This document shows, one piece after another, positions 48,947-49,129 of a stretch of DNA of 64,000 nucleotides. The stretch lies in contig NZ_JAHZTC010000004.1 in NCBI RefSeq assembly GCF_019599265.1, forward strand, positions 62,001-126,000, given 5' to 3'. The position numbers and the translations under genes are program-made. The stretch's first letter is position 1. Every line of letters begins with the position of its first letter. A model generated the notes under the pieces. The model was not told the DNA's origin and ran no database searches. It saw only the letters and a list, made by a program, of their open reading frames with translations. The DNA is from Pontibacter sp. HSC-14F20 (GTDB taxonomy: Bacteria; Bacteroidota; Bacteroidia; Cytophagales; Hymenobacteraceae).

Positions 48947-48974
48947 AGTTCTATATTTTGGTTGTTTGTATATA

Positions 48975-49005
48975 CAAATATATCCAAATTGCGATTATAA
49001 ACCAA
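48975..49005 (-). promoter_or_regulatory. Predicted dps promoter
   Basis: On the minus strand there is a TTG (49003-49005), a 20-bp spacer and TATATTTG (48975-48982), a full match to the Bacteroidota consensus. It is 29 bp ahead of the dps ATG. Confidence 0.6.
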
Positions 49006-49023
49006 ATCGATTATATTGATGCG

Positions 49024-49044
49024 GGTATAGAGATAATCTATACC
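49024..49044. promoter_or_regulatory. Candidate OxyR operator: facing heptamers GGTATAG-N7-CTATACC
   Basis: A 21-bp perfect inverted repeat with seven central bases. Its core is ATAG-N7-CTAT, the spacing of the E. coli OxyR binding half-site (ATAGntnnnanCTAT). It lies in the 183-bp region between the divergent dps and oxyR genes, about 85 bp before oxyR and 20 bp upstream of the predicted dps -33 box. It is built from two copies of the abundant heptamer facing each other, so the match to an OxyR site could also be a product of heptamer density. Confidence 0.5.
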
Positions 49045-49129
49045 TTAGCGGGTGGAAGCTAAAAAGTCTGCCTGCCTGGGGTGACTGGAATGTTGAGATA
49101 GAACGCCTCCATACTATACGTTTGATAGC

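Follow-up and report, generated by a model that had tools for sequence, protein, structure and literature searches.

In Pontibacter sp. HSC-14F20, dps and oxyR are transcribed divergently from a shared spacer of 183 bp (48947 to 49129; all positions are those of the window, the whole stretch of 64,000 nucleotides that was analyzed). Within this spacer lies the palindrome GGTATAGAGATAATCTATACC, in which the heptamer GGTATAG faces its complement CTATACC across 7 bp; as the initial annotation had reported, it encloses the motif ATAG-N7-CTAT. This motif occurs three times in the window versus 0.51 expected, and 1 of 100 shuffled sequences reaches that number. The features of the locus are collected in Table 1.

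Table 1. Genes, repeats, and predicted promoter elements of the dps-oxyR region, in window coordinates.
Feature	Position	Strand	Basis
dps, ferritin-like, 157 aa	48473..48946	-	Pfam PF00210, E 2.7e-20; adjoins oxyR in 36/37 same-genus loci
dps -7 box TATATTTG (TAnnTTTG, predicted)	48975..48982	-	20 bp from the -33 box
IR3, ATCGATTTGGTTTAT in the dps direction	48997..49011	-	AT-N11-AT in all 36 dps sites and 40 of the 41 others
dps -33 box TTTG (predicted)	49003..49006	-	nearly invariant in 36 species
IR2, ATCAATATAATCGAT in the dps direction	49006..49020	-	AT-N11-AT at the same offset in all 36 dps sites and in 40 of 41 others of the regulon
Facing heptamers GGTATAG/CTATACC superposed on IR1 (GGTATAGAGATAATCTATACC)	49024..49044	.	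spacer sequence
IR1, ATAG-N7-CTAT, distal putative OxyR half-site	49027..49041	.	36 of 36 genus sites begin and end with AT
Candidate relocated oxyR -7 box TACGTTTG (predicted, weak)	49117..49124	+	like TATACG motifs in 8/9 heptamer-clade species
oxyR, LysR family, 316 aa, C199 and C208	49130..50080	+	PF00126 and PF03466

The assignment of the second gene to OxyR, proposed initially from its C199 and C208, finds support. Its product matches PF00126 (LysR helix-turn-helix) and PF03466 (substrate-binding domain), both above the gathering scores, and PRK11151 (OxyR) is the best of 52 NCBIfam models, at 230 bits, below the curated cutoff of 329. The best relatives of solved structure are OxyRs, with Pseudomonas aeruginosa OxyR (4x6g) matched at E 6e-50, and translation together with alignment to solved OxyR places the redox cysteines in GHC199FRSQVLNIC208.

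Comparison of the spacer in relatives, which the initial annotation had suggested, revealed that 36 of the 37 Pontibacter genomes keep both the dps-oxyR pair and the element, the latter always being offset by 25 bp from the -33-box motif. Because the spacers showed many gaps in a global MAFFT alignment, we used the conserved -33 motif to anchor the sites; the species are related, and counts of sites are therefore not independent. Beyond the genus, the element also accompanies dps in Rufibacter and Sabulibacter, and in Daejeonella and some Mucilaginibacter the operator precedes an oxyR that has no dps beside it.

When the 36 genus sites were aligned in the direction of dps, three AT-N11-AT inverted repeats emerged (IR1, IR2, and IR3), with ATAG-N7-CTAT as IR1. 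Thus, the palindrome described initially as an OxyR-like half-site is present, but that description was incomplete: it covers one-third of the operator, IR2 and IR3 lying toward dps. The centers of IR1 and IR2 are 21 bp apart in all sites, leaving a 6-bp gap, and IR3 is IR2 shifted by 9 bp, 30 bp from IR1, with the dps -33 box inside it. The predicted dps promoter is of the Bacteroidota type, TTTG-N20-TAnnTTTG, in fixed register with the three repeats; its -33 and -7 boxes match the consensus that PMC7366714 quotes for the housekeeping sigma factor of Bacteroidota, and, counted from where IR1 starts, the -7 box ends after 66 bp at dps and catalase sites alike. The arms of IR2 and IR3 are degenerate (ATAA, YRAT/YTAT), and their conservation is partly that of the promoter because the two repeats overlap the -33 box. 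Transcription starts are predictions, so the placement of the repeats at -65, -44, and -35 is approximate.

This layout resembles that of known OxyR targets. In Escherichia coli, three ATAG-N7-CTAT repeats are found at -66, -44, and -35 of oxyS in the oxyR-oxyS region, and OxyR touches different sets of repeats when oxidized and when reduced (PMC5002191). The two loci share the ATAG-N7-CTAT motif, the three inverted repeats, the 9-bp step from IR2 to IR3, the divergent oxyR, and the position of the activated gene's promoter on the IR2/IR3 side. They differ in that IR1 and IR2 are 22 bp apart in E. coli (7-bp gap) and 21 bp apart in Pontibacter (6-bp gap), where, moreover, the promoter has TTTG and TAnnTTTG boxes, the partner gene is dps rather than a small RNA, and the IR2 and IR3 arms are degenerate. 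OxyR sites of P. aeruginosa, ATAG-N7-CTAT-N7-ATAG-N7-CTAT (PMC5720770), are likewise tandem half-sites ahead of catalase and peroxidase genes, again with a gap of 7 bp instead of 6. Given the 21-bp distance between its centers, in place of 22 bp, we class the Pontibacter element, on comparative grounds, as a spacing variant of the OxyR-type operator.

The heptamer that coincides with IR1 has a distribution of its own. GGTATAG occurs 6,460 times in the 4.64-Mb genome, ∼15 times the reversed-sequence control. Only nine Pontibacter species (genomes G000, G003, G005, G009, G010, G014, G015, G016, and G028) have such an excess, ∼10- to 22-fold, the other congeners being at ∼1 to 4 times the control; the nine group together in the OxyR tree as a single clade (support, 98/95). 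In the window, A precedes the heptamer (position -1) in 90 of 114 copies and C follows it (+7) in 67 of 114, giving cAGGTATAGC. Neither spacer copy has both of these flanking bases, there being G and A around the left copy and A and A around the right one.

One reading in the initial annotation was that dense heptamers had created a look-alike, two of them having come to face each other across 7 bp and to resemble an OxyR site by chance. The abundance of the heptamer allows for this: at its density, the genome should hold about 2.2 pairs that face each other across 7 bp. Five occur (P about 0.08), so that pairs of this spacing, which the initial annotation had asked about, are not clearly enriched; facing heptamers with gaps of 0 to 30 bp are (114 versus 70 expected). 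Against a chance origin, however, the core persists in fixed register with dps in the 27 congeners in which the heptamer is only modestly above the control; the exact ATAG-N7-CTAT is present in all nine species of the heptamer clade and in 12 of the 27 others. It is the flanks that vary. At this site, three of the nine species of the heptamer clade have GGTATAG on the left, one has CTATACC on the right, and the 27 others have neither. The window's genome alone has the complete facing pair, its closest relative (L002) having CTATACT, and neither heptamer copy carries C at +7. We therefore reject the look-alike as extremely unlikely.

The other four facing pairs with a 7-bp gap (L068 to L071) include no strong match to R1, a sequence model that we trained on the dps sites only. 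Two of them are symmetrical stem-loops in DNA without obvious genes, AAGCAGGTATAGC-TAATT-GCTATACCTGCTT at about position 1041 of L068 and GCAGGTATAGC-TGTAG-GCTATACCTGC at about position 1014 of L071, and are reminiscent of uptake-sequence or terminator arrangements.

The other reading offered initially gave the heptamer a role within the OxyR site. In the window's species, such a role could fall, for example, to a heptamer-binding protein that competes with OxyR or helps it. Such an addition would agree with the complete facing pair and with the strong overrepresentation of the heptamer in the clade, but the pair is lost even in the closest relative, occurring in one of nine heptamer-clade species, and its flanks deviate from the heptamer consensus. 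The proposal finds no support here, and we regard it as very unlikely. Because the core is conserved independently of the heptamer and the flanks are not, the site appears to be the older element of the two: as judged by sequence comparison, the heptamer is superposed on an older, putative OxyR-type site via species-specific flanking bases. With high probability, then, the palindrome is an arm of a real OxyR docking site of ancient origin, and its likeness to the heptamer is a local coincidence.

Genome-wide searches connect the same element with other genes. The dps-promoter pattern had 19 matches in 36 genomes versus 1 for the backwards control; nine of these lie ahead of catalase genes and one ahead of katG, six belong to dps and/or oxyR, and three are unexplained. 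R1 had two strong matches in the window's genome, at dps-oxyR (3.9e-9), which was in the training set, and ahead of a catalase gene (5.3e-9), which was not; the third-best match reached only E 0.08. In relatives, R1 matches lie before genes for catalases, a catalase with a signal peptide, KatG, and thioredoxin. The right arm of IR3 ends in AT in 40 of 41 non-dps regulon sites even though it lies outside the R1 columns; the 41 leave out weak R1 matches without a recognizable target (L214, L216, L217, L220, and L228). All 37 genomes of the genus have a match with E < 1e-3, partly by construction. Of the 13 genomes outside the genus that have an OxyR orthologue, 6 reached this threshold and 7 lacked a strong match; none of the 9 genomes without an orthologue reached it.

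These distributions also bear on which protein reads the site. T-N11-A is the general LysR box, and these genomes carry further LysR family genes, so the operator could be real and yet serve another LysR family member or another redox regulator. We see only a slim chance of this: 36 of 37 congeners, as well as members of other orders, have the site next to oxyR, strong matches outside the genus are restricted to genomes with an OxyR orthologue, and the target classes are peroxide or thiol genes. The initial proposal that OxyR uses the site is thus strongly supported by conservation, recovery of a regulon, and co-occurrence with OxyR. It is highly likely that the palindrome represents IR1 of an OxyR operator with three repeats that controls dps.

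The repeats, their spacing, their register with the promoter, and the target genes are evident from sequence; for OxyR binding, the redox shift, and the direction of regulation, we infer the following scheme as the most likely one. OxyR dimers would sit on IR1, and the oxidized protein (C199-C208) would in addition occupy IR2, just upstream of the -33 box; from IR1 and IR2 it would recruit RNA polymerase and activate dps. In the reduced state, the second dimer would move 9 bp to IR3 and cover the -33 box, keeping dps expression low. Alternatively, OxyR may bind, yet IR3 may reflect nothing but promoter conservation, with no redox shift. IR3 does overlap the -33 box at the dps and catalase promoters; this mechanism is a credible though unlikely one, and the thioredoxin operators speak against it. 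They have the same three repeats (L229 to L256), but the -7 box is 10 bp, or one helical turn, further from IR1, IR3 contains no TTTG, and its right arm, CTAT, is conserved nonetheless.

Thioredoxin operators with 19 to 22 of 22 arm positions matched were found in 14 of 30 genomes, whereas shuffled sequences matched at most 16; none was found in the window's genome or in any of the nine heptamer-clade species. Since their -7 box ends ∼76 rather than 66 bp from IR1, IR3 falls roughly at the usual place of IR2. Tentatively, the three-repeat, redox-shifting OxyR operator may be shared between Bacteroidota and Gammaproteobacteria, with Bacteroidota adjusting its output by placing the promoter a helical turn further along it. 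If so, thioredoxin would respond to reduced OxyR differently from dps.

Regulation of oxyR itself may differ within the genus. Reading from IR1 toward oxyR, 19 of the 27 congeners that do not belong to the heptamer clade have a -7-like box, and in 13 TTTG directly adjoins IR1. In most of these congeners, IR1 would therefore lie within the divergent oxyR core promoter, and autorepression is predicted. Neither box is present in any of the nine species of the heptamer clade, eight of which have a TATACG motif just ahead of the oxyR ATG. The IR1-overlapping oxyR promoter appears to have been lost or moved in the window's clade, and direct occlusion of oxyR is therefore not predicted there; TACGTTTG, a few bases before the oxyR start, may be a relocated promoter with a very short leader. 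The sole congener without a dps match beside oxyR (L025, genome G001) has IR1- and IR3-like repeats upstream of oxyR, with the right arm of IR2 decayed; this single case would fit a repression-only use of the operator.

OxyR-dependent induction of dps is already known in Bacteroidota. The available portions of PMC7999485 describe it for Prevotella intermedia and cite Porphyromonas gingivalis and Bacteroides fragilis as well, and they name no sequence for the operator; Pontibacter shares with P. intermedia the apparent link between OxyR and dps and differs in that its operator is defined by comparison. Our literature search found no described OxyR site for Pontibacter, and the Bacteroidota reports, in their available portions, concern OxyR-dependent expression only. 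The present analysis provides a sequence-defined putative OxyR operator and a small regulon for Pontibacter and its relatives, and it tells an older regulatory site apart from a heptamer that is spread through the genomes of one clade and lies over the site by coincidence. The three-repeat layout of E. coli recurs here, combined with Bacteroidota promoters and a 6-bp gap.
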